The position numbers and the translations under genes are program-made. The notes beneath the pieces are model-generated. The model saw only the letters and a list, made by a program, of their open reading frames with translations. It did not search any database and was not told where the DNA came from. Below are positions 7,593 to 27,998 of a stretch of 27,998 bases of DNA, piece by piece; positions within the stretch are counted from its first letter, which is position 1, and each line of letters begins with the position of its first letter. The DNA comes from a virus: positions 1 through 27,998 of IMG/VR virus record IMGVR_UViG_3300042923_001398; one strand, given 5' to 3'.

Positions 7593-7610
7593 TTTAAGGA
7601 GGATAAGAAC

Positions 7611-8678: not shown

Positions 8679-8691
8679 GAGGTAATAGTCT

Positions 8692-9012: not shown

Positions 9013-9015
9013 AGC

Positions 9016-9936: not shown

Positions 9937-9938
9937 TC

Positions 9939-10505: not shown

Positions 10506-10516
10506 GAGGTAAGAAA

Positions 10517-11968
10517 ATGTCAAGAGGTATAAATGCGGTTCAGCAAGACAGCGAATTACTCGACCTTGAAAAAAGTTCATTAATTCCCTGTTATATCGGA
10601 TCAGCTCCATATTGGCAGGTCGACAATCCGAATTGGGCAGATATCAAAGGGAAAGCCTTTGTAATCTCCAGCTCATCCGATGCTAAGGCTAAGATAGGCT
10701 TTTATAAACCTTCATCAGGCAAGTGGAATAAGGAATTCTCACTTGGTGAGGCGGTTTATGCTCACTTTGGTGATAAGAATAATGCTGTCGGTCCTATTAT
10801 AGTTCTTGTAAACGCAGCATCAATTAGTGTGGCAGACGAGGAATCTTCTAAGAATGTTGCTATATCTAATGGTGTTGGTTTACTGGAAGTTAGCGGTAAA
10901 GCAGTACTTAGTACGGTTGCAATTGCTGGTAAAACAAAGGGTGTGGATTACACTGCTGTCTATGATGCAAGCGGTAAATCTGTCATTATTACTGATATTG
11001 GTAACTGCCTTGGTAGCAGTGCCACTGTTACATATTCTGAGGTAACAGGCCTTGATACGTTAATCATGACTTCTGCAACATTAGATGCCATTGATTATTT
11101 TGAGCAGACGATTGGTAGTGTTCCAGCTGTCTTTGCTGCTCCCGGATGGGAAGATGAACTTGTTGATGGTTCAGACGGTACTACAGTAGGAGATGTACTG
11201 AAGGATTTGGCAGCGGATCAAATCAATGGACATTGGTATACTCAGGCTTATGTACAGTTAACATCAAGTGCAAGAGCAGATGTAGCAAGCGAGAAGGCTA
11301 CAAAGGGTTATGATAGTCCTAAGTTGAAAGTCTGCTGGCCTTATGTCAGAAAGAATGGTCTCGTCTATTCTTTAGTCACGAGATTTATTGTAGCAAAGAT
11401 GAAGGTTGATATCAGCAATGATAATATTCCCTATGAATCAGCTTCGAATGAGATAATCGATATCGAGGGATTATGTGATTCATCTGGTACCATTATTCTT
11501 CAGAGTGAAAAGGCTGCTAATTTCTTGAATGAAATTGGTGTTGCAACGTGTAATTTTGCATCCGGTTCCTGGCGCACTTGGGGTGTATGTATGTCTAACT
11601 ATTTGGAGAGCAACAAGGACAATATTCTTCCTGAGAATTTGAACGATGTTGCTGTACAGATGAGAGATTATGTATGCAATGACTTCCAGGTAGCAAATTT
11701 TGAGCATATTGATAAGCCGATCCCGACAAGAAAGGCAAAAGAAATCGTAGATGATTATCAGGTGATCTTGAATACATTAGTGAATGCAGGTGCATTGTTA
11801 TTCGGAAGTATTTCCTTTAAGGCTTCAGAAAACCCTATCAGCGCACTTGCCAATGGTGAATTCGTATTCAATATTGCTGAGACCAATACACCTCCCGGAA
11901 AGAGTATTACAGGAAAAGTACAATATACTCCAACCGGGCTGGACAGCTATTTTAATGAGGAGGTATAA
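10517..11968 (+). CDS. Contractile tail sheath protein (P2 FI-like)
   Basis: The protein has 483 residues and a strong AGGAGG before its ATG. It forms the contractile outer tube. The N-terminus has a short arm and then NPNWADIKGKAFVISS; the middle has an inserted beta domain (VSGKAVLSTVAIAGKTKG region); the C-terminal half has the conserved sheath domain with WRTWGVCMSN, DYVCNDFQVANFEHID, the helix with DDYQVILNTLVNAG and a final beta strand arm PPGKSITGKVQYT. This shows the phage has a myovirus tail although its head genes are of lambda type. Tube, chaperone and tape measure follow in the P2 order. Confidence 0.92.
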   Translation: MSRGINAVQQDSELLDLEKSSLIPCYIGSAPYWQVDNPNWADIKGKAFVISSSSDAKAKIGFYKPSSGKWNKEFSLGEAVYAHFGDKNNAVGPIIVLVNAASISVADEESSKNVAISNGVGLLEVSGKAVLSTVAIAGKTKGVDYTAVYDASGKSVIITDIGNCLGSSATVTYSEVTGLDTLIMTSATLDAIDYFEQTIGSVPAVFAAPGWEDELVDGSDGTTVGDVLKDLAADQINGHWYTQAYVQLTSSARADVASEKATKGYDSPKLKVCWPYVRKNGLVYSLVTRFIVAKMKVDISNDNIPYESASNEIIDIEGLCDSSGTIILQSEKAANFLNEIGVATCNFASGSWRTWGVCMSNYLESNKDNILPENLNDVAVQMRDYVCNDFQVANFEHIDKPIPTRKAKEIVDDYQVILNTLVNAGALLFGSISFKASENPISALANGEFVFNIAETNTPPGKSITGKVQYTPTGLDSYFNEEV

Positions 11969-11973
11969 GGCGA

Positions 11974-12501
11974 ATGAAGCAGTATGCTAATAAGGTTGTC
12001 GATCTTTATCCTACGATAAAGAAAAACGGTAAGTATATTGAGATTGAAGATGTAACGAGCTTTTCCACACCGGAGGTCGCATTTGCAGATGGAGAAGTAA
12101 TCGGTGCAGGTATTTTAGGTACCGTTAATATCCCGGATATCTATAATATTGATGCCATGGAAGCGTCCATCACCGCAAAATCTTTTAGTAGTGGTGTTAT
12201 AGCTGCTATTAATCCGGATGGCATCGATCTGAGACTTAATTGGGCTGTAGATAATGTGAGCGGATCTGGGGCATCCTCATTCACTTCCTATACAGCTACC
12301 ATTAAGGGAAGACCCAAGAACATCCCTGCAGCTGAGGCAACCAAGGGAGAGGGGATGGAGGTCACAGTTAATATTGCTACCAGTTATTATAAGCTTGTTA
12401 AAGACGGTCAAGTAATTCATGAAATTGATCCTCTGAATAATAAGCTGGTGATCAACGGAGTTGATTATGCAAAGAAGTTAAACTCCGCTCTTAACAAATA
12501 A
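11974..12501 (+). CDS. Tail tube protein (P2 FII-like)
   Basis: This is a 175-residue inner tube protein directly after the sheath, as in P2 FI-FII. It begins MKQYANKVVDLYPTIKKNG and has the beta-rich body with GILGTVNIPDIYN, IDAMEASITAK and a C-terminal strand pair (VTVNIATSYYKLVKDGQVI) that resembles the P2 FII signature, in which the end reads 'Y.K...G....EID..N......G'. The same ending is seen here as VIHEIDPLNNKLVINGVD. Rings of six subunits form the rigid tube through which DNA passes. Confidence 0.92.
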   Translation: MKQYANKVVDLYPTIKKNGKYIEIEDVTSFSTPEVAFADGEVIGAGILGTVNIPDIYNIDAMEASITAKSFSSGVIAAINPDGIDLRLNWAVDNVSGSGASSFTSYTATIKGRPKNIPAAEATKGEGMEVTVNIATSYYKLVKDGQVIHEIDPLNNKLVINGVDYAKKLNSALNK

Positions 12502-12525
12502 TATTCGATAATATGGAGGTTAATT

Positions 12526-12933
12526 ATGAACGAAGATAATGAAGTATTAGAGGCAGTAGAGGGTGAGTTATTAGAGCCGGTTGAGGATGAGAATGACACT
12601 AATGAAGAGACCGAAGAAGAGAAGTCATCCGGCTTCCTTGCTTTATCAAAACCATTCGATTTCAATGGTGAGACAATCACTCGAATTGAGTATGATCTTG
12701 ATTCGGTAAAGCCAATTCAGTATATTAATTTGATTAAAAAGTTGAGCAAGAAAGAGGAAATATCCGTTCCTGAACTTAATATTAACGTTCAGATCGGGTA
12801 TTTTTCTTTAGCTTGTGGAGTTCCTGTATCTGATCTTAAGCGACTGCCAAGCACAAAGGATTTCACAGTTGCATGTTCAAAGGTACGAAGTTTTTTGCTA
12901 GGAGCATCGGATACGGAGAACACGGAGGAGTAA
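12526..12933 (+). CDS. Tail assembly chaperone, short form (P2 E-like)
   Basis: This 135-residue protein follows TATGGAGG. The first 40 residues are very acidic; then LSKPFDFNGETITRIEYDLDS and the helical PIQYINLIKKLSKKEEI resemble GpE/TAC proteins of contractile phages ('L.KPI...G..I..I.' motif). The C-terminus of this form ends after the slippery site, as FLLGASDTENTEE. It binds the tape measure and prevents aggregation during tail assembly. A longer version is made by -1 frameshift; see the separate entry. Confidence 0.85.
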   Translation: MNEDNEVLEAVEGELLEPVEDENDTNEETEEEKSSGFLALSKPFDFNGETITRIEYDLDSVKPIQYINLIKKLSKKEEISVPELNINVQIGYFSLACGVPVSDLKRLPSTKDFTVACSKVRSFLLGASDTENTEE

Positions 12934-13109
12934 ACTTCGTTAAGACCGTAGCTGGTACTATCACTATGGACACATCAACCGATTACATGACTGCACTTGA
13001 TATGCCGATTGGCTTGTTTTTAGATTGCTATAACACCTTAGTGATGATATCTGAAAGGCGAGATGAGGAGCTTAAGAGAAGTATCGATGCGGTCAAAAAT
13101 AAGAAATAA
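12526..13109 (+). CDS. Tail assembly chaperone, frameshifted long form (E+E'-like)
   Basis: A -1 shift at T TTT TTG (12891-12897) moves ribosomes from the E-like frame to the overlapping frame that ends at 13109. The fusion is about 194 residues: 124 from the first frame, then 70 starting at ARSIGYGEHGG. The added part has the usual E' features: TDYMTALDMPIGLFLDCYNTL and a charged basic helix at the end (RRDEELKRSIDAVKNKK). It has no convincing ribosome site of its own. The E/E+E' arrangement immediately before the tape measure is conserved in P2-type and lambda-type phages (lambda G/GT). Confidence 0.82.
12891..12897 (+). promoter_or_regulatory. -1 ribosomal frameshift slippery heptamer T TTT TTG
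   Basis: In the zero frame the codons are TTT (12892-12894) and TTG (12895-12897); after slipping back one base both tRNAs can re-pair with TTT TTT. This is the same heptamer class used in P2 gene E. The overlap of the two frames spans it. Nearby bases also hold an 8-base inverted repeat, CGAAGTTT (12886-12893) and AAACTTCG (12932-12939), which encloses part of the heptamer; whether it affects shifting is unknown. Confidence 0.85.
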
Positions 13110-13121
13110 GGTGGTGTATAT

Positions 13122-15386
13122 TTGGCTAAAGGAAAAGAATTCAGTACGAATATAACTCTGCGTGGTAAAGTTGATCCTAGTCTCAATAAAGCGTTTCAGG
13201 ATACCAAAGCAAAAGCCGGTAATGCAGCAAAAGCTGTAGGTAAGAGTTTGTCAAAGAATATGACTGATGGCACCAGAATAGCTACGAAAGCAATGACAAA
13301 ATCGTTGAAATCAGTAGCTATTGGTGCTGTGAAGATATTCGGAGCTATAAAGGCTCTTGCTGGACTTAAGAATTATGCATCTGAGACCATTACTGCAGCA
13401 AAGGCTCAGCTTGAAGTCCAAACAAAGTTATCTTCTGTGCTTGAGAATGTTAAATCAATTCAGATTAGGGGACCTAATGCAGCTGCTGAAGCTGCAAAGG
13501 AGTTACAGAATGTTGCTGATGCTCTTGAGAAGACTGGTGTAATAGGATCTGATATTACCATGGCCGGAATGCAGCAATTAGCTACCTATCAGTTATCTGA
13601 AAAAGAAATATCAGTTTTATCTTCCGGTATGACTGATTTATTAGCCCAACAAAAAGGATTAAACGCCTCTCAAGGAGATGCTGTATCAATAGGAAATTTG
13701 ATTGGTAAAGCTATGTCGGGTAATGATGGTGCACTATCAAAAGTTGGTATTACTTTTACCGAAGTACAGGCGAAAGCAATTAAAACAGGTGATGCCACGC
13801 TACGTGCAGCTACAATTGCTGAGGTATTGAAGGATAATGTTGGTGGAGTTAATAAAGCATTAGGTGAAACGGATCAAGGGCAGCTATTGCAAGCACAAAA
13901 CACCTTTGACGAAATTAAGGAGGAAATCGGATACTTTCTGCTTCCGCTTTTAAATCAATTCGTGAAAGGTGTTTTACCTTATGTAAAAACTGGTCTCGAA
14001 AAGCTGAAAGGAGTCTTGGGTAAACTAAGTCCGATTATCGGAAAGATATTAACAAATGGATTTGAACGGTTTTCAACTATCTTACCAATAATTATGGATA
14101 TAATCTCCGATATTTTGCCGATATTAGCACAATCCATTTCACCTATGGGTGCATTGAAGCATTTGTTACCAGTGATCATAAGTGCAATACAGATGTTGGT
14201 GCCGGTAATAAAATCACTGCTTCCTACAATCATTAACCTTATTCTGAAGGTATTGCCTGTATTACTCACTATTTTTCAGAACTTAATACCTTTAATTGCT
14301 AGTATTGTGAAAGAAATCGCTCCGTTGGTTATAACATTGATGGATGCACTTATACCGGCATTTGAAACACTGATTCCACCGGTGATTGATATCATATCGA
14401 ATATCATGCCTGTGCTTATTTCACTGTTCAAAATGATTACACCGTTTATTACTAAGCTTGTTTCTCAGATTGCTCCTCTAGTTAAGATTATCGCCGGAGC
14501 ATTATTGCCGGCATTTCAAGCTTTACTACCTCCAATAATGAGTTTAATTCAGGCGGTATTACCTGTTTTAATGAATCTGTTCAAATCGATATTCTCAGTC
14601 ATACAGTCGCTGGCACCTGTCCTCTCAGTATTAGCTCAGATAATTTCGAATGTGTTAGGCAATGCAATTCAAACCTTAGTTCCAATTATTCAAGGAATAT
14701 TAGGACATTTCACAAATATCATGAATACACTCAAAGCTATTATTGATTTTGTGGTGAACGTATTTACAGGTAATTGGGAAGGGGCATGGGAAAATGTGAA
14801 GAGCATTTTTGCCGGTATTTTCACTGGATTATCTGATGTAGTGAATACTCCGTTAAACCTTGTAATTGGTTTGGTCAATATGGCTATAAGCGGTATCAAT
14901 GGTCTTACCAGCGTGATTAATAAAATACCAGGTGTAGATATTGGTGAAATCCCTCAAATACCTTATCTGGCAAAAGGCGCAACTGTGACAGCCCCTACAC
15001 TGGCTATGATAGGCGAGGGCAAAGTGCCTGAAACAGTAGTACCTCACAACAACACCAAGAGATCAAGGGCATTACTAGCGGAGGCTACAAGAGGTGTTGG
15101 TATGAAAACCAGTGAAGCTCCGATGCGATCAATCGTTAATAGTATAAACCGCTCTCTTTCTTATTTTGCAAGTTATATCAGTGGCATTAATAAGAACAAG
15201 CCAGTTCCTGGTGATGGTGATACGACGAATAATAGCAATAGTAAAACTTATAATTTCTACTATTCTCCTGTTGTCAATGCGAAAGATGCCTCCGGTGTTA
15301 AGGAAGTTCTTGAAGATGAATTTGAGAAATTCAAAGCCTTTGTTAAGCAGCTGAAGGACGAAGAGGGAAGAGAGGTGTTTGCCTAA
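13122..15386 (+). CDS. Tail tape measure protein
   Basis: The protein has 754 residues, starting at TTG 13122 after AAGGTGGTG. It fixes tail length and is ejected during infection. Residues 1-250 are charged and helical (KAFQDTKAKAGNAAKAVGK; TMAGMQQLATYQLSEKE-type segment), typical of TMP N-termini. Residues about 345-495 form a strongly hydrophobic helical block in which proline recurs every 11 residues, sometimes seven. The C-terminal 150 residues contain FTGNWEGAWENVKSIFAGIF and the usual GEIPQIPYLAKGA, which precedes 'MIGEGKVPETVVP' of many TMPs. By the roughly 0.15 nm per residue rule the tail would be around 110 nm. Many internal frames are shadows. Confidence 0.93.
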   Translation: MAKGKEFSTNITLRGKVDPSLNKAFQDTKAKAGNAAKAVGKSLSKNMTDGTRIATKAMTKSLKSVAIGAVKIFGAIKALAGLKNYASETITAAKAQLEVQTKLSSVLENVKSIQIRGPNAAAEAAKELQNVADALEKTGVIGSDITMAGMQQLATYQLSEKEISVLSSGMTDLLAQQKGLNASQGDAVSIGNLIGKAMSGNDGALSKVGITFTEVQAKAIKTGDATLRAATIAEVLKDNVGGVNKALGETDQGQLLQAQNTFDEIKEEIGYFLLPLLNQFVKGVLPYVKTGLEKLKGVLGKLSPIIGKILTNGFERFSTILPIIMDIISDILPILAQSISPMGALKHLLPVIISAIQMLVPVIKSLLPTIINLILKVLPVLLTIFQNLIPLIASIVKEIAPLVITLMDALIPAFETLIPPVIDIISNIMPVLISLFKMITPFITKLVSQIAPLVKIIAGALLPAFQALLPPIMSLIQAVLPVLMNLFKSIFSVIQSLAPVLSVLAQIISNVLGNAIQTLVPIIQGILGHFTNIMNTLKAIIDFVVNVFTGNWEGAWENVKSIFAGIFTGLSDVVNTPLNLVIGLVNMAISGINGLTSVINKIPGVDIGEIPQIPYLAKGATVTAPTLAMIGEGKVPETVVPHNNTKRSRALLAEATRGVGMKTSEAPMRSIVNSINRSLSYFASYISGINKNKPVPGDGDTTNNSNSKTYNFYYSPVVNAKDASGVKEVLEDEFEKFKAFVKQLKDEEGREVFA

Positions 15387-15586
15387 TGGGTGAGTACACA
15401 GCAATTCAGGGCGATACATGGGATCTGATATCATTCAAACATTATGGTAGCGAATATCATATATCTGAGTTAATACTTGCTAATCCTGATTATGTGGATG
15501 TTGTTGTTTTTGATGGAGGCGAGAAGCTGATAATTCCTACAATAAGTATTATTGATACATCATTACTTGCTCCATGGAGGCGATAA
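15386..15586 (+). CDS. Tail protein X, LysM-like
   Basis: This is a 66-residue LysM-type protein whose ATG overlaps the tape measure stop by one base. It reads AIQGDTWDLISFKHYGSEYHI, then LILANPDYVD and FDGGEKLIIPTI, the classic 'GDTWD.I....YG......I...NP......F..G..L.IP' pattern of phage P2 tail protein X. It connects the tube and the hub at the baseplate side in contractile tails. The next gene starts two bases after it and uses a GGAGG inside the end of this ORF. Confidence 0.9.
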   Translation: MGEYTAIQGDTWDLISFKHYGSEYHISELILANPDYVDVVVFDGGEKLIIPTISIIDTSLLAPWRR

Positions 15587-15587
15587 T

Positions 15588-16517
15588 ATGGCTCACAAAT
15601 TAATTATTAAGGATGTAGATATTTCATTATCTAATCAATCCATTCGGACGAGTAAATATACCGATTATGCTGGAGGGCATGCAGATGTCCTCCAGATCGT
15701 TTTTAATGACACTTTTGATCTATGGAGAAAATGGAATCTTGCGAAAAACGATAAGATACGAATTATAACCGATAAAATTGATACCGGAGACATGTATGCC
15801 AGCAGCATTGGCCTTGATTTCGGCAAGTATACTATAAGAGCCGTATCTACACCGGCTAAGTCATTGAATGAATCATCCAGCATACGTGAGAATATCAAGT
15901 TGTCTGAGGTCTTAAGCGAAATCAGTAAGGAATTAGGCTTTGATTTGGACACTTATAACATTACAGATTATCGATACTCGTATTTGGAGAGAGTTAATCT
16001 CAGCCCATTCTCATATTTAGAAGGAATTCTTCAAAAAGAAGGATATCTTCAGAAGATATTCAATAATAAACTGATTGTTTATTCAGAAAAAGTACTTGAA
16101 CAAATAGAACCTTTAGTCAAAGTTTCTTACGAGGATTTTATTAATCCTCCATGTCTTAGTACATCGGATGCGGTATTATTGGCATCGGTTGAAAATATTT
16201 ATTTGAGTAGAGATAGTGTTATTAAAAGCATAGCATTGTCTGGACTTAACGGTAGAAATAGAACATTCCATATTCCTGTGGATAGTATTGGTGAAGGAGA
16301 GCGGTTTTGTAAAAATATCATGAGATATTTTAACAAGCATGAATACAATGGCTCCGGAACGATATCAGGAAGTAATATCTCAGCAGGAATTACTATAGAT
16401 TTGAATGGTGATTTCTCTGAGTGGCAGGGTAAGAACTTTGTCTTTGAGGTTAATCATGATCTCATTTATGATCGACAAACTATCAAATTCAGAAAGCCAA
16501 TAAAGGGTGATTATTAA
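15588..16517 (+). CDS. Baseplate hub protein, P2 gpD-like (late control D family)
   Basis: This 309-residue protein starts at the ATG at 15588; the longer frame from 15552 is rejected because GGAGG 15576-15580 fits 15588. It shows the gp27/VgrG-like hub fold pattern: N-terminal beta strands, 'WRKWNLAKNDKIRI' with the following DTGDMYASSIGLDFG, the helix with LSEVLSEISKELGFDL, then FSYLEGILQKEGY, and the C-terminal strands GEGERFCKNIMRYFN ... WQGKNFVFEVNHDLIYD. In phage P2 this trimer caps the spike side of the tube. The stop overlaps the next ATG by one base. Confidence 0.85.
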   Translation: MAHKLIIKDVDISLSNQSIRTSKYTDYAGGHADVLQIVFNDTFDLWRKWNLAKNDKIRIITDKIDTGDMYASSIGLDFGKYTIRAVSTPAKSLNESSSIRENIKLSEVLSEISKELGFDLDTYNITDYRYSYLERVNLSPFSYLEGILQKEGYLQKIFNNKLIVYSEKVLEQIEPLVKVSYEDFINPPCLSTSDAVLLASVENIYLSRDSVIKSIALSGLNGRNRTFHIPVDSIGEGERFCKNIMRYFNKHEYNGSGTISGSNISAGITIDLNGDFSEWQGKNFVFEVNHDLIYDRQTIKFRKPIKGDY

Positions 16518-16711
16518 TGGTGAAACTTGGTAAGGTTGCTGTTATTGAAGGAAATAAGGCTAAAATTGTATATGAAGATATAAATCAAATGACACCTTTG
16601 ATAGACATAGCATCACATGTAGTGGGATTACAGGTAGATAAAGCTGTAGTCGTAGCTATTTTTGATGATAGCAATCTACGCAATGGTGTAGTGATAGGAG
16701 TGATAGAATAA
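16517..16711 (+). CDS. Minimal baseplate protein V-like OB-fold protein
   Basis: This 64-residue protein is located between D and U-like genes, where contractile phages code for the baseplate spike V. It reads as a short beta barrel: 'KLGKVAVIEGNKAKIVYED', then LIDIASHVVGLQVDKAVVVAIF and 'NGVVIGVIE'. The last part resembles the OB-fold end 'G..V.V.........GVVLG.I' of gpV. The C-terminal beta-helix spike of P2 V (about 150 residues) is absent. It could be an OB-fold spacer that holds another spike or none at all. The identification rests on position and short motif; confidence is moderate. Confidence 0.5.
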   Translation: MVKLGKVAVIEGNKAKIVYEDINQMTPLIDIASHVVGLQVDKAVVVAIFDDSNLRNGVVIGVIE

Positions 16712-17142
16712 TGAAAATAGGAACCTTTGGACCCAAAGTATTTACTATAACCGATAAGCATATTAATACATTTAAGAGTCTGGCCAGATCATCCGGCTAC
16801 AATGTCGAGGAAGAGGACAATGGAACTGGTAAGCCCAAATTAAAAAAGAAATCACCTTCTTTAGAAACCCTATCTTTTGATATAGAATTAAGATCTGATT
16901 TCGCTGATGTAGGTAAGGAGATTGAGAGTTGGATCGGTCTCAAAGGTGATTCGTATTATTTTATAGTTGGCAGAGAGAAAGTTGGTTCTAATCAATGGAT
17001 GCTTACTAATGTTGATACATCCAATATCGAAATTCTTCCTGGTGGAAAGATAAAGAAGGCATCATTAAGCCTAAGTCTCAGAGAAAATTCCATTACTGTT
17101 AAAAATAGCACAGCGAAATCCACACGAAATGCAAAGGGTTAG
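16711..17142 (+). CDS. Tail protein U-like (P2 GpU family)
   Basis: This 143-residue protein starts in the TAATG overlap with V-like. It begins FGPKVFTITDKHINTFKSL, has a charged linker, and then PSLETLSFDIELRSDFADVGKEI, 'GDSYYFIVGREKVG-NQWMLTNVD', and the C-terminal KIKKASLSLSLREN. These match the P2 U pattern, where the protein starts 'FGLFVFS......F..L' and ends 'W.I..V.E......DG..RK..F.LSL..'. In P2, U is essential for tail completion and binds the sheath/tube end. The sequence is Lys-rich at the C-terminus (KNSTAKSTRNAKG). Confidence 0.75.
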   Translation: MKIGTFGPKVFTITDKHINTFKSLARSSGYNVEEEDNGTGKPKLKKKSPSLETLSFDIELRSDFADVGKEIESWIGLKGDSYYFIVGREKVGSNQWMLTNVDTSNIEILPGGKIKKASLSLSLRENSITVKNSTAKSTRNAKG

Positions 17143-17150
17143 GTGATGAT

Positions 17151-17432
17151 ATGTTTCAATGGGGTAATACATCTACAGAACAGGAACGCATTGCTAAAAA
17201 TGTAACTAATCTTTTGAATATTAGAAAGAATGAAGTATGTTTTGACAGAGGATTAGGAGTTAATATAAATCTCCTTGATAAGACGCAAAGTACCATTAAT
17301 TCGAAGTTAATTACTGATATTGCCGACATGATTTCTGAGAGAGAACCGAGGGCTGATTTAAAGCTTGATAATCTTATTGATCTAAATGAAAACGGTGAAT
17401 ATACATATAAGGCGGTGATAGGTATTGTTTGA
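17151..17432 (+). CDS. Baseplate wedge protein W (gp25-like)
   Basis: This 93-residue protein has the gp25/P2 W pattern: an N-terminal helix 'QERIAKNVTNLLNIRKNEV', the conserved 'DRGLG' turn (residues 30-35), a long helix with NSKLITDIADMISEREPRADL and the terminal strand 'YTYKAVIGIV'. T4 gp25 and P2 W form the inner wedge of the baseplate that initiates sheath assembly. The gene end overlaps the J-like gene start by eight bases, an arrangement typical for the W-J pair. Confidence 0.88.
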   Translation: MFQWGNTSTEQERIAKNVTNLLNIRKNEVCFDRGLGVNINLLDKTQSTINSKLITDIADMISEREPRADLKLDNLIDLNENGEYTYKAVIGIV

Positions 17433-18528
17433 TTTTATTAAATTCGATGAAAGTGAAGTATTGGAAGAAGCGATAGTGAAATATGAAGAGGCAACAAATA
17501 CGATGCTTTATGCCGGTGATGAGCGAAGAATTATACTTAATTCTTTCATGTATATAGCTGCCGTAATCGCTGCTAAAGGAAATTATTTGGCGAATCAGTA
17601 TTTTGCTCAAACGGCTGTTCTTCCTTACCTCGGTTATATCGGTGAAGGTAGATCGGTACTACAATTAGAAGCCGGTAAATCTCTTGTGACAATGAGATTT
17701 AGCGTGTCCTCTGTAAAAGCATTTGATATAGAAGTACCTTCTGGAACGAGAGTTACACCAGACGGTACTCATTTTTTTGCCACTAAAGTAAAGCTTACAC
17801 TCGTACAAGGCACATTAAGTATTGATATACCATGTGAAGCAACTGTTCCCGGTAAAGCTCATGACGGATTCACACCTGGTTCAATAAATACTTTGGTAGA
17901 CAATATCCCTTATATCTCAAATGTTACTAATATTGATACAAGCTCAGGGGGTTCAGAAGTTGAGGATACTGAAGATTATCGTGAAAGAATTATGCTGAAG
18001 CCATATGGGTATAATACAGCAGGTTCTGAAGCAGCCTATATCTACTTGGTCAAAACTGCTGATAGTTCAATCGGAAGCGTTACAGTAAAGAACGAACCGG
18101 CGAGCTTACTAATTACGATTTTGCATAAAGATGGTTCAATACCGAGTGATCTTGTGGTTCAGAGAGTTTCAGATGCTCTCAGTGCTAAGACTGTTCGACC
18201 ACTAGCTGATCAGGTAATTGTTCAAAAGCCAACGGTAATACCTTATAACATTTCACTCTCATATACAATCAGTGAAGTTGATGCACCGAATATGGTTGAA
18301 ATCAACTCAAAAGTTATAGCAGCTATTAGAGAATATGAATCATATCAAGGAACTGAGATTGGTAGATCGATTAATCCGGATATTCTGAAGAAATTCGTAT
18401 TAAATGCTGGAGCATATACAGTGAATATTGCGAGTCCTGTATTTACTGAAGTAAATAAACAATCTATTGCTCAGATCAATGGGAATCCTTTAGTTACGTA
18501 TGATGGGATTTATGAGGAGGCAACATGA
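17425..18528 (+). CDS. Baseplate protein J-like
   Basis: The protein has 367 residues, with a TTG start at 17425 that overlaps W by eight bases. It is the wedge protein of the contractile baseplate (P2 J, T4 gp6 related). The family's landmarks are seen in order: 'VPSGTRVTPDGTHFF' near residue 107, a C2-like repeat with AHDGFTPGSINTL and 'PYISNVTNIDTSSGGSEVEDTEDYRERI' divided over residues 160-190, then AGSEAAYIYLVKT and a C-terminal domain 'TVRPLADQVIVQKPTVIPYNIS'. The end shares four bases (ATGA) with the I-like gene. Confidence 0.92.
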   Translation: MFDFIKFDESEVLEEAIVKYEEATNTMLYAGDERRIILNSFMYIAAVIAAKGNYLANQYFAQTAVLPYLGYIGEGRSVLQLEAGKSLVTMRFSVSSVKAFDIEVPSGTRVTPDGTHFFATKVKLTLVQGTLSIDIPCEATVPGKAHDGFTPGSINTLVDNIPYISNVTNIDTSSGGSEVEDTEDYRERIMLKPYGYNTAGSEAAYIYLVKTADSSIGSVTVKNEPASLLITILHKDGSIPSDLVVQRVSDALSAKTVRPLADQVIVQKPTVIPYNISLSYTISEVDAPNMVEINSKVIAAIREYESYQGTEIGRSINPDILKKFVLNAGAYTVNIASPVFTEVNKQSIAQINGNPLVTYDGIYEEAT

Positions 18529-19085
18529 AGCTAAATAATATTAGTATGATAGATATCATTCCTCCATATATGCAAGAAGATACTACGGTTATAGGTCTCT
18601 GTTCAGCAGCTAATCACATTATCAAGAGATTATTTGAAGCAATTCAAAAAATTGACTTTTATCAAAACTTAAATCTGCTTAATGAGGCTGACTTGGACTA
18701 TATTGCGAAAATCAGAAACATTATCTGGTATGACAAAAGCAGTACGAAGGATGTAAAGATAAGTGTTATCAAAAATGCTGAGAAAGTATTCTGGAGCCTC
18801 GGAACTGTATCCGCAGTGGAGAGTGTAGTTGAGGATATAATAGGTGAATGCGATATTATGGAATGGTTTCAATATGGTGGAGATCCATATCATTTCAAGA
18901 TAGTCACTGATAATCCTCTGGTAACTGGTGATGCTGTAAGTACATTCAACTCAATTATCCAGCATGTTAAAAGAAAGAGCGCAATTCTTGATGGAGTGGA
19001 GATATCGCTGGCTGCATCAATGATCTTCAATTTAGGCGCAGTTCTTCATACTGGTGAAATTTTAGAATTACGACAGGAGGGATGA
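18525..19085 (+). CDS. Tail protein I-like (baseplate, P2 gpI)
   Basis: This 186-residue protein sits between J and the fibre gene, as in P2 J-I-H. The sequence has ISMIDIIPPYMQEDTT near the start ('...LLPP.......' in P2 I), the 'LNEADLDYIAKIRNIIWYD' helix, and SAVESVVEDIIGECDIMEWFQYGGDPYHF, which is the conserved 'A.....AFG....EWWQ.GG.P..F' hallmark of GpI, and the C-terminal helix with 'IIQHVKRKSAILDG'. It links wedge J to the fibres. Start ATGA overlaps the previous stop. Confidence 0.88.
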   Translation: MKLNNISMIDIIPPYMQEDTTVIGLCSAANHIIKRLFEAIQKIDFYQNLNLLNEADLDYIAKIRNIIWYDKSSTKDVKISVIKNAEKVFWSLGTVSAVESVVEDIIGECDIMEWFQYGGDPYHFKIVTDNPLVTGDAVSTFNSIIQHVKRKSAILDGVEISLAASMIFNLGAVLHTGEILELRQEG

Positions 19086-19088
19086 TGA

Positions 19089-19868
19089 ATGAGTTTTAGT
19101 ACTATATTGTTTACCGATAAAGGACGTGCGTTACAATCAAAGGCTCTGGCAGGTGCCAATTTGAATTTTACCAAGATTGTTATGGGTTCCGGTAACTTAG
19201 GTGGTCAATCACAAATCACTCTATCAGCAGTGATTGAACCTAAAGTAAGTTTAAGTATTACCTCCTTACTGCATAAATCCAATTATGCAACAGTTAAGGG
19301 GGTATTTTCAAATTCAGATATCAGTGAAGGGTTTTATTGGAGAGAGCTTGGAGTCTATGCACAAGATCCTGACCTTGGTGAAGTCCTCTATTGTTATGGC
19401 AATGCTGGACCATTAGCTGATTATATTCCTAGTCAATCATCTGAAATTATTGAGAAGGTAGTTAGTATTTCGGTGATTGTTGGTAATGTTGCAAATGTAA
19501 CAGCAACGATTGATGAGTCATTAGTATATGCTAGTAAGGCAGATCTTGATGCAAAAGCTAATACGAACGATGTTAATTTGGCATTATCACAGAAAGCAAA
19601 CAAATCAACTGTAGTAACTGTTACGGCTACAGTGGCAGGATGGTCAGGATCTTCAGCTCCATTTACCAATACGGTGAACGTTGAAGGAGTAACTGCAAAC
19701 AATAATATCTATGTTACTGTTGGATCAGGGGCTTCTATAACAGAATATGCAGCAGCGGTGGATGCTCAATTGCATTGCTCCGCACAGGGAGCTGGTACAA
19801 TAACAATTAAGGCTTTTGATACCAAGCCTACAGTGGCTATTCCGCTCACAGTATTAATCTTAGGATAG
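19089..19868 (+). CDS. Tail fibre / collar protein (P2 H-type N-terminus)
   Basis: This 259-residue protein has a GGAGG site close to its ATG. The first 150 residues match the tail-collar fibre domain (DUF3751, P2 H N-terminus): 'FSTILFTDKGRALQSKALAG', 'TKIVMGSGNL', and 'GFYWRELGVYAQDPDLGEVLYCYGN' split across residues 78-105, ending with 'VANVTATIDESLVYASKADL'. A short coiled-coil segment (residues 150-170) and a terminal beta domain (175-259) follow. It attaches to I and the baseplate, so it is probably the proximal fibre; the next gene would provide the distal receptor-binding part. Confidence 0.87.
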   Translation: MSFSTILFTDKGRALQSKALAGANLNFTKIVMGSGNLGGQSQITLSAVIEPKVSLSITSLLHKSNYATVKGVFSNSDISEGFYWRELGVYAQDPDLGEVLYCYGNAGPLADYIPSQSSEIIEKVVSISVIVGNVANVTATIDESLVYASKADLDAKANTNDVNLALSQKANKSTVVTVTATVAGWSGSSAPFTNTVNVEGVTANNNIYVTVGSGASITEYAAAVDAQLHCSAQGAGTITIKAFDTKPTVAIPLTVLILG

Positions 19869-19878
19869 GGGTGGTAAT

Positions 19879-21603
19879 ATGATTGTAAACGGTTTTCCAA
19901 GAGGTGTTAAGATTTATACTGACCAAGTATCTGGTTTAGCTGTTTCTGCCGTTGCTAATACACCAGGGAGCTTAATTATAAGTTGGACGCAACCTTCGAG
20001 TAAGCTGTATAAAGGAGTAACCCTTGTATATAAAACAGGAAGTTATCCAACATCTCCCACTGATGGTACTGTTGTATATGTTGCAAAGGGCACAGTAACA
20101 AAGACTATAACTGGATTAACTGGAGGCACTACTTATTATGTAAGAGCATTTGCAAAAGCTACAAACACCAGTGGTTCAAAAGTATACTACAATACGACAA
20201 CTACAGGAGCACAGGCTGGAAGAGCTACAATTGCAAGCCCTGTAACAAACTTTGTTATAGCTGCAGTTGCCAATTCACCTGATAAGTTAACATTTTCATT
20301 ATCTGCTCCTTCAGGTGCTTATGATGGTGTTATGATACGGTATAAAGCAGGAAGCTACCCAACTTCACAAACAGATGGTACTCAGCATTACTATGGAAAA
20401 AACACAAGTGGGACTATTGGAGGGCTTACAGGAGGTACTCAGTATTACTTTAGAGCTTTCGTATATAACTCAGATAATGCTGTTAACTCTGATACTGCAC
20501 AACAGGCAAAGGACTATACAGTACCTAGCCCAGTGTCTAATTTAGCTGTTGCAAAAACATCTCCAACAAGCTTGACAGTAACTTGGTCGCTACCTGCAGG
20601 TGCATACAGTAATATATATATAAAGCGAAAAGCAGGAAGTTATCCTACTGAAGCAGACGGGGGTATTATATACACTGGGCTTGGAACATCAATTGTCGAT
20701 ACTGGATTAGCCTCTGGTACAACATATTATTATAGGGCCTTTGTAATAAACTCAGCTGGTAATTATAATACAAGCACTTCTCAGCAAGCGAACAATGCAA
20801 CAAAAGCTGCAGCTGGTCAAGTAGTGCTAACAAGTTCGCAAACTTGGACAATTCCAGCAGGTGTCAGATTGGTCGATATATTCCTCGTAGGCGGTGGTGG
20901 TGGTTCTGCATATGGATCTCATAACGACCTAGGTACTGGAACTATTCTTGGTGCTGCAGGTGCCCCTGGAGGGGGTTATACGACTACTAGGAAAGGACTA
21001 TCTTGCACTCCTGGTTCAGCTGTCGTAGCAGTTATTGGTGCAGGAGGTGAAAGAACTCGTTTGGTTACAACTGGCGGCGAAGGAGGTACCTCATCAATCA
21101 CCATAAGTGGAACAACTTATTCCGCAATAGGAGGAAAAGCCCCCGTACTTGGTAACAACGGTGATTGGTTCGGGGCAAATGGAGGTTCTGGTGGTGGTGG
21201 CGGTATTCAATCAAGTGACAACAAGTCTTACAGTGGTGCAGGTGGTTCTGATGGTTCAGATGGTTCAGGTGCAGTGAGTAATGGTCAGGCAGATGATTTT
21301 TATAGAGGTGGGGAAGGGCAAGGCTCCACGACCAGAGCTTTTGCTGATGCAGGTGGAATCCTTTACGCAGGTGGTGGTGGTGGTTGTTATAGGTCAGTAG
21401 GCACCACTACTGGTTATCCAGGAGCAGGTGGTGCTGGTGGCGGTGGTAAAGGTGGATACGCATGGAAGTATCAGGCTGTTGCAGGTACTCCGAATACAGG
21501 AGGTGGTGCTGGCAGTGCTGTAGCTGAAGCACAAGGTGACTATACATGGCGAAGTGTAAAAGGTGGCTCAGGTGTAGTTATTATCAGATGGGCTGAACAG
21601 TAG
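19879..21603 (+). CDS. Tail adhesin: three FN3 repeats plus Gly-rich domain
   Basis: This is a 574-residue probable receptor-binding protein. Residues about 15-305 hold three fibronectin type III repeats of about 95 residues, each with SLI/KLTFS/SLTVTW strands, a KAGSYPT or TGSYPT loop and a 'TGLTGGTTYYVRAFA' or similar strand. Residues about 310-574 form a very Gly-rich domain that starts 'VLTSSQTWTIPAGV' and contains the runs VGGGGGSAYG and GGSGGGGG, ending WGVVIIRW-like (SGVVIIRWAEQ). This second part matches the glycine-rich domain found in phage tail tips and bacterial cell-wall proteins. No signal peptide is seen. It probably forms the host-range determinant. Confidence 0.82.
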   Translation: MIVNGFPRGVKIYTDQVSGLAVSAVANTPGSLIISWTQPSSKLYKGVTLVYKTGSYPTSPTDGTVVYVAKGTVTKTITGLTGGTTYYVRAFAKATNTSGSKVYYNTTTTGAQAGRATIASPVTNFVIAAVANSPDKLTFSLSAPSGAYDGVMIRYKAGSYPTSQTDGTQHYYGKNTSGTIGGLTGGTQYYFRAFVYNSDNAVNSDTAQQAKDYTVPSPVSNLAVAKTSPTSLTVTWSLPAGAYSNIYIKRKAGSYPTEADGGIIYTGLGTSIVDTGLASGTTYYYRAFVINSAGNYNTSTSQQANNATKAAAGQVVLTSSQTWTIPAGVRLVDIFLVGGGGGSAYGSHNDLGTGTILGAAGAPGGGYTTTRKGLSCTPGSAVVAVIGAGGERTRLVTTGGEGGTSSITISGTTYSAIGGKAPVLGNNGDWFGANGGSGGGGGIQSSDNKSYSGAGGSDGSDGSGAVSNGQADDFYRGGEGQGSTTRAFADAGGILYAGGGGGCYRSVGTTTGYPGAGGAGGGGKGGYAWKYQAVAGTPNTGGGAGSAVAEAQGDYTWRSVKGGSGVVIIRWAEQ

Positions 21604-21618
21604 AAAGGAGATAAGATA

Positions 21619-21942
21619 ATGTGGGTTAATCAAATTTTTAGTTTAATTAAAGAAGGAGTAATTCAAAATATTGTAGTTTGTGATAATTATACAGTTGCAA
21701 ACGAGCTGTCGAGACTTACTTATGGTGATGACGCTATTGCAGTGGACACCACTTTATACCCGGTTAATATTGGAAGTAAATATTTAGATGGAACTTTTTA
21801 TCAAGATGATGGGGTTACAGAAATACTCCCTAATCCGACAGAAGCACAAGAAATATCTCGTATCAATACAGAAAACATAGTTCTAACTGAGTATATAATC
21901 GATTTAGATTATAGAATGTCACTGAAAGAAATGGGGGTGTAA
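21619..21942 (+). CDS. Small tail-associated protein, possible fibre assembly factor
   Basis: This 107-residue protein follows AAAGGAG. It has an N-terminal segment MWVNQIFSLIKEGVIQNIVV, a middle 'IGSKYLDGTFYQDDGVTEILPNPTEAQ', and a charged C-terminal helix (INTENIVLTEYIIDLDYRM). Similar small proteins follow the fibre gene in clostridial and lactococcal phages; they are tail-fibre associated or chaperone-like. No catalytic motif or membrane segment is seen. The role is inferred from place only. Confidence 0.5.
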   Translation: MWVNQIFSLIKEGVIQNIVVCDNYTVANELSRLTYGDDAIAVDTTLYPVNIGSKYLDGTFYQDDGVTEILPNPTEAQEISRINTENIVLTEYIIDLDYRMSLKEMGV

Positions 21943-21945
21943 GAT

Positions 21946-22086
21946 ATGACGTACACTTTATGCAAGAAACTTATCACATCTGGTAATTATGATAAAGATG
22001 ATATGCTCAACAAACTTGACGTATTTCTTCTTAACGACAGAATTAATGATGCACAGTATAATGAGCTTGTGACGCTGATCGGTTAA
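21946..22086 (+). CDS. XkdX-like small phage protein (46 residues)
   Basis: The short frame runs from ATG 21946 to TAA 22084-22086, only three bases after the previous gene. The peptide starts MTYTLCKKLITSGNYDKDDM and ends 'LNDRINDAQYNELVTLIG', the helix-turn-helix layout of XkdX (a repeat-like 'I..G.Y.....L..FL....I....Y..L..L'). XkdX proteins are found just before holin and lysis genes in PBSX-like phages, which agrees with the position. Role in the tail or late region is not known. Confidence 0.7.
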   Translation: MTYTLCKKLITSGNYDKDDMLNKLDVFLLNDRINDAQYNELVTLIG

Positions 22087-22091
22087 AGGAC

Positions 22092-22115
22092 GCATCCGGA
22101 AGGGTGTTATTTTTA
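22092..22115 (+). terminator. Weak terminator-like hairpin between tail and lysis genes
   Basis: GCATCC (22092-22097) pairs with GGGTGT (22102-22107) through a GGAA loop, using two G-T pairs, and is followed by TATTTTTAT. The stem is short (six pairs), so termination would be partial at best. It divides the structural genes from the lysis cassette. Confidence 0.35.
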
Positions 22116-22143
22116 TGCTTGTAGAAAGGATGGTATTTCATGC

Positions 22144-22386
22144 ATGAGTGATGCTGTATTAATAGCCCTGTTTACTCTAGGTGGTAGCGGAATAGGGTCT
22201 TTGTGTGGGATTATAATCTCTAATTCTCTTACAACTTATCGCCTCGGACAGCTGGAAAAAAAGGTGGATAAGCATAACGGAGTTATAGAGCGCACCTATA
22301 GGTTGGAAGAAAGGATGTCTTTGACGGAAAAGGATGTCCGTGTAGCAAATCATCGTATTGAGGACCTTGAAAGCCAGGTGGGATGA
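22144..22386 (+). CDS. Small membrane protein with coiled-coil tail, lysis region (XhlA-like?)
   Basis: This 80-residue protein has an N-terminal membrane segment (residues 5-25, LIALFTLGGSGIGSLCGIIIS) followed by a charged helical tail, from YRLGQLEKKVDKHNG to the end, with heptad-like spacing. The pattern (one membrane helix plus a cytoplasmic coiled coil) resembles hemolysin/XhlA-type proteins that work with holins, although in XhlA the membrane helix is normally C-terminal. It ends inside the next ORF start (GATGATGG). Role: lysis accessory, by context. Confidence 0.55.
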   Translation: MSDAVLIALFTLGGSGIGSLCGIIISNSLTTYRLGQLEKKVDKHNGVIERTYRLEERMSLTEKDVRVANHRIEDLESQVG

Positions 22387-22607
22387 TGGAAAAAAAGAAG
22401 GGTAGATACTCGAAATTCATAATAACAGCCGTGATAGTGTTAAATTCACTTTTCACGGCTGCTGTTTTATATGTCTTCCTCCGAGTCGGGAGCGAGCCAT
22501 CTGCATTAATTGCAGCATGGTTTACTTTTACAACTGGAGAATTATTGCTTCTGTCAAACATTAAAAAATCAAAGATCAAGAAAGAGAATAAGGAGGATTT
22601 AAAATGA
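22383..22607 (+). CDS. Two-helix membrane protein, holin candidate
   Basis: This is a 74-residue protein beginning at ATG 22383 (or 22386) overlapping the previous stop. It shows two probable membrane helices, FIITAVIVLNSLFTAAVLYV (14-33) and the segment IAAWFTFTTGELLLLS (about 43-58), with basic ends (MMEKKKGRYSK and KKSKIKKENKEDLK). This charge pattern fits holins (class II-like). The gene contains a 9-pair intragenic inverted repeat near its start (22426-22434 and 22453-22461). It lies two genes before the endolysin. Confidence 0.55.
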   Translation: MMEKKKGRYSKFIITAVIVLNSLFTAAVLYVFLRVGSEPSALIAAWFTFTTGELLLLSNIKKSKIKKENKEDLK

Positions 22608-22620
22608 GGTCACTAAAGAA

Positions 22621-22836
22621 GTGTGGTTGTTTCAAAAGATACCGACAAAAACATGGACATTAATTGTATCAATTGTAATTTGTCCTATAACTTATCTGGC
22701 TTATATTGCATATATCAATATGCAATTAACCTGGTATTACTTGATAGCGATTATTATTAGTGGGTTCCCTGTATCCTATATAGCCACATACGGATGGGAT
22801 TCCTTTAATGATTTATGGAAGCGGTTTAAAAGGTAG
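22621..22836 (+). CDS. Small membrane protein, second holin candidate, start unclear
   Basis: This is a 71-residue protein with two membrane helices (residues about 11-29, TWTLIVSIVICPITYLAYIA, and 36-53, WYYLIAIIISGFPVSYIA) and a basic end WKRFKR. It can only start at GTG 22621, which has no clear ribosome site. A strong AGGAGG (near 22592) precedes ATG 22604, but that ATG reads a different frame and gives a 19-residue peptide. Either initiation is translationally coupled or a base has been lost. See findings. Functional role by position: holin or lysis regulator. Confidence 0.5.
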   Translation: MWLFQKIPTKTWTLIVSIVICPITYLAYIAYINMQLTWYYLIAIIISGFPVSYIATYGWDSFNDLWKRFKR

Positions 22837-22848
22837 GAGGAATACATT

Positions 22849-23625
22849 ATGGCTATTAGAATAGGACATGCTTCTATTGATGAAAATGGAAAGATTGTTG
22901 GTGGCATAGTCGGTGATCAATCCACTAAAGAAATCTGCTTCCGTTCATGGTATAGCAAACCATGGAATGTATATCTTGAATGCAAGGATACTGCGTTAGC
23001 AGGTAGAGCTGCAAAAATCATGGAACAGATATGTACTGATAATAATTTTGGTTACGATCAATCAGAAAGACTGTCAGGGTACAATTCCATTGTAAAGAAC
23101 GGTAACAAAATACATGGGGCTAAAGGTGAGTTTGATTGCTCTTCGCTGGTGTCAGCTTGTTACAAGCTCGCCGGACTCGACATTTCTGTATCGAATACTA
23201 CAAGGTCAATCAGGGCAAGTTTTCTCTCTACTGGCAAGTTTGAAGCTTATGCCGATAAATCGCATTTGATTAGTGATAAATTTGCCAAACGTGGTGGTAT
23301 CTATCTAAAAGAAGGCAGTCATGTCGTCATGGCCTTAGAAGATGGATTAGGAGAGAATCCTTATCCAGTACCCAAAACTACTATATATTACGATCATGCG
23401 AACAATAAGATAGTTTGTAAGGGTGATACCGTGAAGTGGGTTCAGTATGAATTGATTAATGATGGTATAACTGAGGTAGAGGTAGACGGAGTAACAAAAA
23501 AACTCTCTATTGATGGATCATGTGGAAAGATTACCGATGCTGCTATCAGAGTATATCAGGATAAACATGGTCTACTTGTTGATGGTAAAGTAGGACCTAA
23601 TACAAGGAGATCTTTTCTTAATTAA
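22849..23625 (+). CDS. Endolysin: NlpC/P60-type peptidase with peptidoglycan-binding domain
   Basis: This 258-residue cell-wall hydrolase has AGGAGG eight bases before its ATG. Residues 1-180 form an NlpC/P60 cysteine-peptidase domain: the nucleophile in FDCSSLVSACYKLAG (Cys97) and the histidine in KEGSHVVMALEDG (His158). Residues about 195-258 match a peptidoglycan-binding domain type 1 with 'GDTVKWVQYELI', 'IDGSCGKITDAAIRVYQDKHGL' (in parts) and 'VDGKVGPNTRRSFL'. There is no signal peptide, so it needs a holin, consistent with the three membrane proteins before it. It would cut the stem peptide of peptidoglycan at the end of infection. Confidence 0.9.
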   Translation: MAIRIGHASIDENGKIVGGIVGDQSTKEICFRSWYSKPWNVYLECKDTALAGRAAKIMEQICTDNNFGYDQSERLSGYNSIVKNGNKIHGAKGEFDCSSLVSACYKLAGLDISVSNTTRSIRASFLSTGKFEAYADKSHLISDKFAKRGGIYLKEGSHVVMALEDGLGENPYPVPKTTIYYDHANNKIVCKGDTVKWVQYELINDGITEVEVDGVTKKLSIDGSCGKITDAAIRVYQDKHGLLVDGKVGPNTRRSFLN

Positions 23626-26196: not shown

Positions 26197-26289
26197 ATAC
26201 AAATGTAAAATAAAGTAGAATAATATATATATTTTATCTTATGAGATTTGAGGTTATATGTGAAAAAAAAGATACTAAATCGTATTCAT

Positions 26290-26325
26290 TTGAAAGATAG
26301 GGGCAAATACAATTTGGTGGTCCGG
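26290..26325. other. Prophage right end (attR) inside cotJC, approximate
   Basis: Left of about 26305 the DNA is AT-rich and non-coding, with a stop (TAG 26298-26300) in the cotJC frame. From about 26307 the frame continues as CotJC (IQFGGPDGEL...). In complete CotJC proteins the GGPDGE motif is preceded by about 45-50 residues, which are missing here. The simplest reading is that the phage inserted between the codons for the N-terminal part and GGPDGE. The exact core (perhaps in CAATTTGGTGGTCC) can only be fixed with the left end. Confidence 0.6.
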
Positions 26326-26651
26326 ATGGAGAACTTGCCGCATCGATGCGCTACCTGTCACAGCGCTATGCTATGCCAAATAGAAAAGTATGTGGTATCT
26401 TAACTGATATCGGAACAGAAGAACTTGCTCATATGGAGATGGTAAGTGCGATTGTTCATCAGTTAACCAAAGATCTTACCCCTGCTGAGATTATGGAGGG
26501 TGGATTTGAGAAGTATTATGTTGATCATACCCTTGGCTTATGGCCGCAATCCGCAGGCGGAATACCGTTCAACAGCTGTTTCTTCCAGAGCAAGGGAGAT
26601 CCGATTACCGATTTAGTTGAAGATATGGCAGCAGATGCTGCGATCATGTAA
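26307..26651 (+). pseudogene. cotJC: cotJC fragment (spore coat manganese-catalase-like), interrupted
   Basis: The in-frame protein, from IQFGGPDGELAAS through 'LTDIGTEELAHMEMV', 'YVDHTLGLWPQSAGGIPFN' and 'QSKGDPITDLVEDM', is the core of CotJC, an inner spore coat protein of the manganese-catalase family. The EELAH segment carries metal-ligand Glu and His. The N-terminal part is absent because of the prophage junction. The C-terminus also stops early (DMAADAAIM), where complete CotJC usually continues by roughly 50 residues, so the gene may be broken at both ends. An ATG at 26346 has no ribosome site and is not a natural start. Confidence 0.85.
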
Positions 26652-26681
26652 GAACAACATTATTAAAGCTAGATAATTAGG

Positions 26682-26834: not shown

Positions 26835-27629
26835 ATGTGTAAAGTAATTGCAATGGTAAACCAGAAGGGTGGCGTAGGAAAAACCACCACAGCCTTCAAT
26901 CTTGGCTACGCATTAACGCGTGCCGGTAGAAAGGTGCTTGAGATCGACCTGGATCCGCAGGGAAGTTTGACAGTGTCACTGGGCTATGATGACAATGATA
27001 ACCTGAAGAATACAATTGCCACGCTTATGGCTTTGGCTATTGAAGAGGAACCTCTTCCTACTCCGGATGAATTTATTATCAGAACCGGCAGTGTGGATCT
27101 TATCCCATGCAATATTGAATTGTCGGCAATTGAGGTAAGCCTTGTGAATGCAATGAGCAGAGAGGTGATACTGAAGTCGATTATTGATGATATTAAGGAC
27201 GCTTATGATTATATTATCATTGACTGTTCACCGTCTCTGGGAATGCTAACGATTAATGCTCTTGCAGCCTGTGACAGTGTTATTATTCCTGTTACACCCC
27301 AGTATCTGAGTGCAAAAGGCCTAGAATTACTACTGAAAAATATATTAAGAGTGAAAAAGAGAATAAATGCAGGAATTGAAATAGACGGCATATTATTAAC
27401 GATGTTCGTGGAACGGACGAACCTAACCAGAGAGATTACAGAAATGATCACGGAGGCATACGGTAATGCCATCAATATATATAAAAGCCGTATCCCTAAT
27501 TCAGTAACGGTAGGGTATTCGGTTTTGAAAAGTAAATCAATTATTGAGTATGCTAAAACCAATAAGGTTGCACAAGCATACCAGGAATTTGCACTGGAGG
27601 TGATAGCACATGACACAGCTGGAAAATAA
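26835..27629 (+). CDS. parA: ParA/Soj-type partition ATPase
   Basis: This is a 264-residue protein after GAGGAG. The deviant Walker A KGGVGKTT is at residues 10-17, with the adjacent DLDPQGSLT (A' motif) near 40 and the Walker B-like YIIIDCSPSLGMLTINAL near 127-143. It is a type Ia/Ib ParA without an N-terminal HTH domain. Sequence features such as LMALAIEEEPLPTP are like ParAs of integrative or plasmid elements rather than the chromosomal soj near oriC (inference). It would drive segregation or position of DNA together with ParB, whose ATG overlaps its end by 20 bases. Confidence 0.92.
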   Translation: MCKVIAMVNQKGGVGKTTTAFNLGYALTRAGRKVLEIDLDPQGSLTVSLGYDDNDNLKNTIATLMALAIEEEPLPTPDEFIIRTGSVDLIPCNIELSAIEVSLVNAMSREVILKSIIDDIKDAYDYIIIDCSPSLGMLTINALAACDSVIIPVTPQYLSAKGLELLLKNILRVKKRINAGIEIDGILLTMFVERTNLTREITEMITEAYGNAINIYKSRIPNSVTVGYSVLKSKSIIEYAKTNKVAQAYQEFALEVIAHDTAGK

Positions 27630-27998
27630 GAAGAAATTAACGAAATTAAATGAAATGTTTGGTGATATTACAGAACCGCTCATAGCTCAATCAAATAAAA
27701 TCAGAGTTGATTTTCTTGTCCCTTATAAAGATCACCCCTTTAAGCCATATACCGGGCAAAGGTTTGATGATATGGTACAGAGCATCCAGGATTATGGGGT
27801 GATCCAGCCGGTTATCATACGTTCGCTTCCAAATTCAGAGCGATCGGAAATCCTTGCCGGTCATAACCGGTGGAGAGCTGCACAGGCAGCCGGTCTAACG
27901 GAAATCCCCTATATCCGAATGGATGGGCTAACGGAAGAGGAAGCAAAATTAATTGTGACAGAGACTAATCTGATACAACGATCTTTTGCTGATTTACT
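27610..27998 (+). CDS. parB: ParB-family partition protein, 5' part (runs off window)
   Basis: An open frame from ATG 27610 (GGAGGTG nine bases before) extends to the window end without a stop; 129 residues are visible. It shows the ParB/Spo0J nuclease-like domain: 'VPYKDHPFKPYTGQRFDDMVQSI' in parts, 'GVIQPVIIR' (residues 63-71), 'ILAGHNRWRAAQAAG' (81-95, the GxxRxxA box) and 'TETNLIQRSF' (118-127). In the family this region binds CTP and ParA; the HTH part that binds parS would be beyond the window. The 20-base overlap with parA suggests coupled translation. Confidence 0.9.
   Translation, partial: MTQLENKKKLTKLNEMFGDITEPLIAQSNKIRVDFLVPYKDHPFKPYTGQRFDDMVQSIQDYGVIQPVIIRSLPNSERSEILAGHNRWRAAQAAGLTEIPYIRMDGLTEEEAKLIVTETNLIQRSFADL

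Follow-up and report, generated by a model that had tools for sequence, protein, structure and literature searches.

The spore coat gene cotJC as a probable shared docking gene for several families of large serine recombinase elements in Lachnospiraceae

In the Lachnospiraceae, several distinct families of elements carrying large serine recombinases (LSRs) probably share the spore coat gene cotJC as their docking gene; by the same reading, drawn from sequence comparison, the copy analysed here would have been entered twice, and the elements at two of the insertion sites (C and D, below) would be excised under sigma E. The window, meaning the whole stretch of DNA that was analysed, is a 27,998-base metagenomic virus record that starts inside a phage, ends before either LSR and shows one junction per element, and relatives, not its own host genome, supply the evidence on the other ends.

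The window contains an internal piece of cotJC, codons ~28–136, from which ~28 codons of the 5′ end and ~60 codons of the 3′ end are absent. The first-pass annotation had placed a change from AT-rich phage DNA to an open frame with the CotJC core at about 26307, and the change was confirmed at ~26304, with two matches to PF05067 (CotJC/Mn-catalase) well over the curated cut-off of 27 bits (88 and 93 bits; E = 5.9e-27 and 2.2e-26). The 45–50 N-terminal residues that it had counted as missing are reduced to ~28 by alignment to intact genes. Comparison with phage-free cotJC, which it had also proposed, was made with intact genes of Herbinix-type Lachnospiraceae, the nearest hosts, which are 84–91% identical to the window piece in amino acid sequence and define both missing ends: similarity begins at codon ~28 (GQIQFGGPDGEL), and the frame 26301–26651, which reads GQIQFGGPDGELAASMRYLSQRYAMPNRKVCGILTDIGTEELAHMEM...EDMAADAAIM*, is open, has no start codon of its own and stops at 26651, whereas the intact homologues continue ...EDMAAEQKARTTYDN.... 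That a prophage had broken cotJC holds as far as an insertion at site A is concerned, the left break being the right end of a sheathed-tail prophage; however, the coding sequence is interrupted at two places, site A and site C, so that what is left is an internal piece, with the C-terminal ~60 codons also lost, which the first-pass annotation had overlooked. The core and arm of the right break mark it as another recombination junction, at site C, made by an element starting with parA/parB, and the window gene appears doubly interrupted (Table 1).

Table 1. Features of the window and a conserved leader in related loci (positions refer to the window unless a contig is named).
Feature	Position	Strand	Basis
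Prophage body: terminase, portal, head protease, capsid, tail sheath, tape measure, baseplate, endolysin	1768..23625	+	PHROG/Pfam matches; 81–90% nt identity to contig G006
Two ORFs, right prophage end	24818–25573 and 25594–26133	-	ORF list; no Pfam/PHROG match
Prophage/cotJC junction, site A, core region around CAATTTGGTGG	26285..26325	+	Same start codon of CotJC similarity in L002, L003 and GTDB site-A splits
Internal cotJC piece, codons ~28–136	26304..26645, read-through stop at 26651	+	PF05067 match; 84–91% aa identity to intact Herbinix-type cotJC
cotJC/element junction, site C: GCAGCAGA core, then TGCTGCGATCATGTAAGAACAACAT arm	26638..26668	+	Core shared with, and arm similar to, those of 17 other site-C loci
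parA, second (site-C) element	26835..27629	+	PF13614, E 1.4e-57
parB, second element, cut by window end	27610..27998	+	PF02195, E 9.9e-18
LSR leader	L002 ~4770–4875	+	Folding z -3 to -6.5 (all four leaders)
LSR leader	L176 ~8575–8680	+
LSR leader	L004 ~8195–8300	+
LSR leader	L200 ~2950–2850	-

To assess how often cotJC is split, an even draw of 299 Lachnospiraceae genomes was searched. A CotJC match was present in 183, and in 48 of these, about a quarter, the gene lay in complementary pieces (58 weak or cut matches were re-read); the 48 include cases with halves on different contigs, and in 27, counted from the tabulated cases, the pieces were on one contig, in one orientation and ~2.4–43 kb apart. 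Sampled in the same way, adk exceeded the cut-off in 282 genomes and was partial in about one (~1/283), and spoIVA, present in 80 of 120 genomes, gave 0/80 insertion splits, with one contig break and one frameshift-like case (Fisher p = 1.5e-20 and 4e-9 for cotJC splits against adk and spoIVA, respectively). With these two controls, the splits cannot in general be put down to chance, to contig breaks or to errors in sequencing. Eighty independent loci from another genome collection, GTDB, comprised 60 intact, 18 split and two off a contig end, and both halves were recovered in all 11 of the split GTDB genomes checked; examples are Lachnospiraceae bacterium 28-4 (D; element of ~3.9 kb, KE159598.1), Mediterraneibacter agrestimuris DSM 111629 (A) and Diplocloster modestus ASD4241 (C), the last of which has a second, intact cotJC copy. 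A scan of viral contigs for the window piece returned seven contigs, in two of which (L002, L003) CotJC starts at the same codon as in the window and in four of which the break falls at TDIGTEE, seen from the right-hand side in L004, L005 and L006 and from the left-hand side in L007.

Breaks clustered near codons 28–33 (A), 60–68 (B), 133–138 (C) and 172–178 (D), with site B comprising two crossover points (B1 and B2), and all fall in strongly conserved CotJC motifs. Some of these we take to be metal-ligand motifs. In L008 (10001–10126), the seventh of the viral contigs, CotJC is more distant and is broken near codon 52–56, possibly a further site or a variant of site B. When left and right junctions were aligned on the CotJC reference, the shared cores were TATGGTGGACC (A), TAGGTACAGAAG (B1), GAACTGGCACAT (B2), GCAGCAGA (C) and CGTTTCGGTGAAA (D). 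The repeat expected at both junctions was thus found in the relatives, and joining the halves at the core by script gave a full-length CotJC of 198–229 aa in 21 of 23 single insertions; of the two exceptions, G193 is decayed, as are some split genes, and the core of G250 was mis-called by the script, its frame being open. Nearly all 3′ halves were intact and in frame and had no own start. An LSR was present in every element read at both ends. In viral contigs L002, L004, L005 and L007, an LSR gene abuts the junction, and Pfam Resolvase, Recombinase and Zn-ribbon domains were found in the LSRs of L002 and L007. A tree of 36 LSRs separated A, B1, B2, C and D with six label changes, the fewest possible, against a mean of 22 after shuffling; in G031, a long core spans both B points and the LSR belongs to the B2 clade. 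Double insertions indicated by the pieces were A+B in G139, G221 and G285, A+C in G087, B+D in G125 and G288, and C+D in G299, with both LSRs found in G087.

The elements range from prophage-sized (~40 kb) down to islands of ~2.4 kb (G282, L070), and their cargo includes a sulfate permease, an S66 peptidase, Fur with a hydrogenase–rubrerythrin fusion, a Spo0A-like regulator and a ParE-like toxin. The Fur-family regulator and the 681-aa fusion lie between the cotJC halves in the site-A element of G102 (L175), and the Spo0A-like regulator (receiver plus Spo0A_C) in the site-B1 element of G058 (L177, 1262–2068, minus strand). Site-D elements carry a 56-aa ORF and the ParE-like toxin beside the cotJC 3′ piece (L070, 12511–13022; L049, 13838–14349), and the L070 element, at ~2.5 kb, consists only of this pair and the LSR gene. 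The LSR of the site-A element in G182 is a 273-aa N-terminal part only (L172, 2804–3625, minus strand), so the split there may be permanent. Two hairpins, with a terminator-like U-run after the second, form a leader that is conserved just upstream of the A and B2 LSR genes (Table 1); an Rfam search of this leader matched no family.

The phage body of the window has its nearest relative in contig G006 (= L007/L212/L244), which opens with the cotJC 5′ half at site B2, followed by the LSR gene; over 114 bases, the cotJC sequences of this contig and the window are 92% identical. The first-pass annotation had looked to the other prophage end for the 5′ half and an adjacent large serine or tyrosine recombinase, and G006 has this arrangement, with a large serine recombinase; the window itself starts inside the phage. 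Neither of the minus-strand ORFs adjoining the site-A junction gave a Pfam or PHROG match, and as the right prophage end has no recombinase, the LSR is predicted for the left end, which by comparison with G006 should lie ~18 kb beyond base 1, for a prophage of ~44 kb. The two bodies match, yet G006 is at B2 and the window at A, indicating that one phage lineage enters cotJC at different points; the lineage thus probably uses different integrases at these points, and the window's own LSR would lie outside the window. The contig of a sister phage (G325) contains no cotJC. A D12-type adenine methyltransferase gene is present in the window as two overlapping ORFs (23719–24249 and 24201–24473), probably frameshifted. 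Regarding the second element, a site-C element in L055 has parA, parB, a 62-aa ORF and the LSR gene in a row, and its ParA matches that of the window (E = 3.4e-70); given also the shared site-C core and arm, the window's parA/parB most likely lie in the second cotJC element. A chromosomal origin for parA/parB was rejected, as the window ParA is 38–44% identical to nearly all related-host ParA hits (58% to one), which points to an element gene. Scans of the viral contigs for ParA and for the site-C pattern gave no hits.

Most C and D elements have a small ORF of 42–59 aa just upstream of the LSR gene, with the patterns CKNVFK...F.K.WIELIN in C and RQEI..LFQIFKKY in D; its position and size are compatible with a recombination directionality factor (RDF), and these ORFs are regarded as candidate RDFs. 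A first scan directly upstream of all LSR starts gave a weak promoter signal (10/37 vs. 3.9 expected), which became clear once the small ORF was taken as the start of the unit: the sigma-E-type motif ATA-N17-CATANNNT was present upstream of it in 15 of 19 C/D elements (shuffled mean, 0.3; maximum, 3 in 500), with a background rate of 2.7% of 1026 pieces. Because the motif had been noticed before being tested, further, held-out elements were fetched, and seven of ten had it (C-type, 5/5; D-type, 2/5; p = 1e-9 on the background rate, elements being treated as independent), bringing the total to 22 of 29. Beside the LSRs of the other sites it was found in 0/9 (A) and 4/18 (B), and L055, to which the window's second element is most closely related, also lacked it.

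In Clostridioides difficile, sigma-E promoters have ATA at -35, a classical spacing of 16–18 bp and CATA, sigma-K promoters have AC at -35 with a -10 sequence common to both, and the homologues cotCB and cotD are sigma-K-dependent (PMC3789822); excision of skinCd requires an RDF that is controlled by sigma E and SpoIIID (PMC5025042). The cotJ operon of three Herbinix-type hosts shows a promoter-like sequence, AC-N16-CATA, that is sigma-K-like. The promoter evidence supports a mother-cell timing for the putative excision of C/D elements. The sporulation-linked excision proposed by the first-pass annotation is accordingly plausible as a link, but the signal belongs to the C/D elements and not to the site-A LSRs; for the window's site-A phage, LSR integration and precise excision on induction seem well founded, and sporulation timing is possible, a point to which the promoter evidence gives no support.

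In the model proposed here, each LSR family would integrate at its own conserved point in the cotJC coding sequence, and in the window a prophage would have entered at codon ~28 and the parA/parB element at codon ~136 of one gene. The LSR and a small directionality factor would excise each element. For C/D elements, sigma E would make the RDF and the LSR in the mother cell, so that the element exits before the sigma-K-like cotJ operon is expressed, after which sigma K would express the rebuilt cotJC; the mother cell would rebuild the gene, and the spore genome would retain the element. Put forward more tentatively, and at somewhat less than even confidence, is the broader view that independent, separately controlled LSR elements keep cotJC in up to three pieces, that the mother cell has to join the DNA of the gene at one or two points to yield the spore catalase, and that sigma-E excision units are common to at least two deeply separate LSR lineages (C and D).

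A developmental switch is counted against by the report that B. subtilis cotJC mutants have no apparent defect (PMC12122855). So mild a loss would also suit a simpler account, which we consider unlikely although it is the strongest of the alternatives, in which cotJC, conserved and dispensable, is no more than a convenient site of attachment, CotJC is lost in lysogens, and elements leave only on ordinary induction with no developmental timing. The A/B elements, which include full prophages, fit this account in lacking the sigma-E motif (at B, in most cases), and so does the horizontal spread of the elements between species (L063/G249, LSR 100% and cotJC 72% identical), by which intact cotJC halves may reflect recent arrival only; in a species pair sharing a D element (L049, L070), cotJC dS was saturated and LSR dS was 0.37, which is no proof of long maintenance. 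Against it stand the motif in the C/D elements, confirmed in the held-out set, the 3′ halves that are nearly always intact, in frame and startless, and the LSR kept even by islands of 2.4–4 kb.

The double break in the window could instead be an assembly chimera of a site-A lysogen and a site-C lysogen joined through the shared middle of cotJC, since the record is a metagenomic fragment and the shared piece (~340 bases) exceeds short-read length. This seems improbable given the doubly split cotJC of other assemblies (A+C in G087, A+B in G285, and C+D in G299 and B+D in G288 on single contigs), and even so each single junction would be real. Least credible by far is an old cotJC pseudogene or phage-carried host scrap unrelated to integration, as the absence of both ends and of a start codon might suggest: both breaks lie at recombination points used in dozens of other genomes and the frame is open and closely resembles that of intact homologues, and the old remnant that the first-pass annotation had allowed for is answered by the shared junctions and intact frames of the relatives rather than by the window's own genome.

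If cotJC is a docking gene as proposed, its elements offer many natural sets of LSR, attB and candidate RDF, make separate origins of one developmental switch comparable, and allow a direct test of whether mobile elements repeatedly come under sigma-E control, sparing spore formation. For annotation, what is labelled 'truncated cotJC' in assemblies of Lachnospiraceae is often a gene that has been split. Interruptions have been reported in sigK, spsM, spoVFB, gerE and yabG (PMC5595907, PMC10747680), and cotJC was not found named as a split gene or insertion target in the open-licence PMC papers searched. Elements of this kind are already known; what appears to be new is cotJC as the target, the presence of four docking points, the double interruptions and the frequency across the family. 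Earlier sporulation-gene interruptions were mostly single cases, whereas cotJC is a hotspot throughout the family, where five recombinase clades occupy four docking points and some genes are interrupted twice.

The closest parallel is the skin element of C. difficile in sigK (LSR CD1231, RDF CD1234), which also splits a mother-cell sporulation gene and has an LSR with Resolvase, Recombinase and Zn-ribbon domains and a small RDF under sigma E (PMC5025042); the cotJC elements differ in their target, docking points, several LSR clades and double insertions, and in that the candidate RDF of C/D elements directly precedes the LSR. Like the cotJC prophages, SP-beta in spsM of B. subtilis (SprA/SprB) is an active-looking prophage in a spore-envelope gene and is LSR-mediated (PMC4191935), but its gene and hosts are different and its excision in sporulation is proven, whereas that of the cotJC elements is predicted. 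Non-phage counterparts are gin in gerE of B. cereus ATCC10987, an LSR element in a mother-cell gene (PMC5595907) that, at 28.6 kb with three recombinases, contrasts with the many cotJC elements of 2.4–10 kb with one LSR, and yin in yabG of C. botulinum, an LSR element in a sporulation gene that was shown to circularise (PMC10747680), in a single strain and at a single site. Finally, the attachment site of phi027 in C. difficile R20291 adjoins cotG, a CotJC-like Mn-catalase gene; unlike the split cotJC, cotG has been described as whole, and its position is downstream of attR (PMC11222575, PMC12122855).
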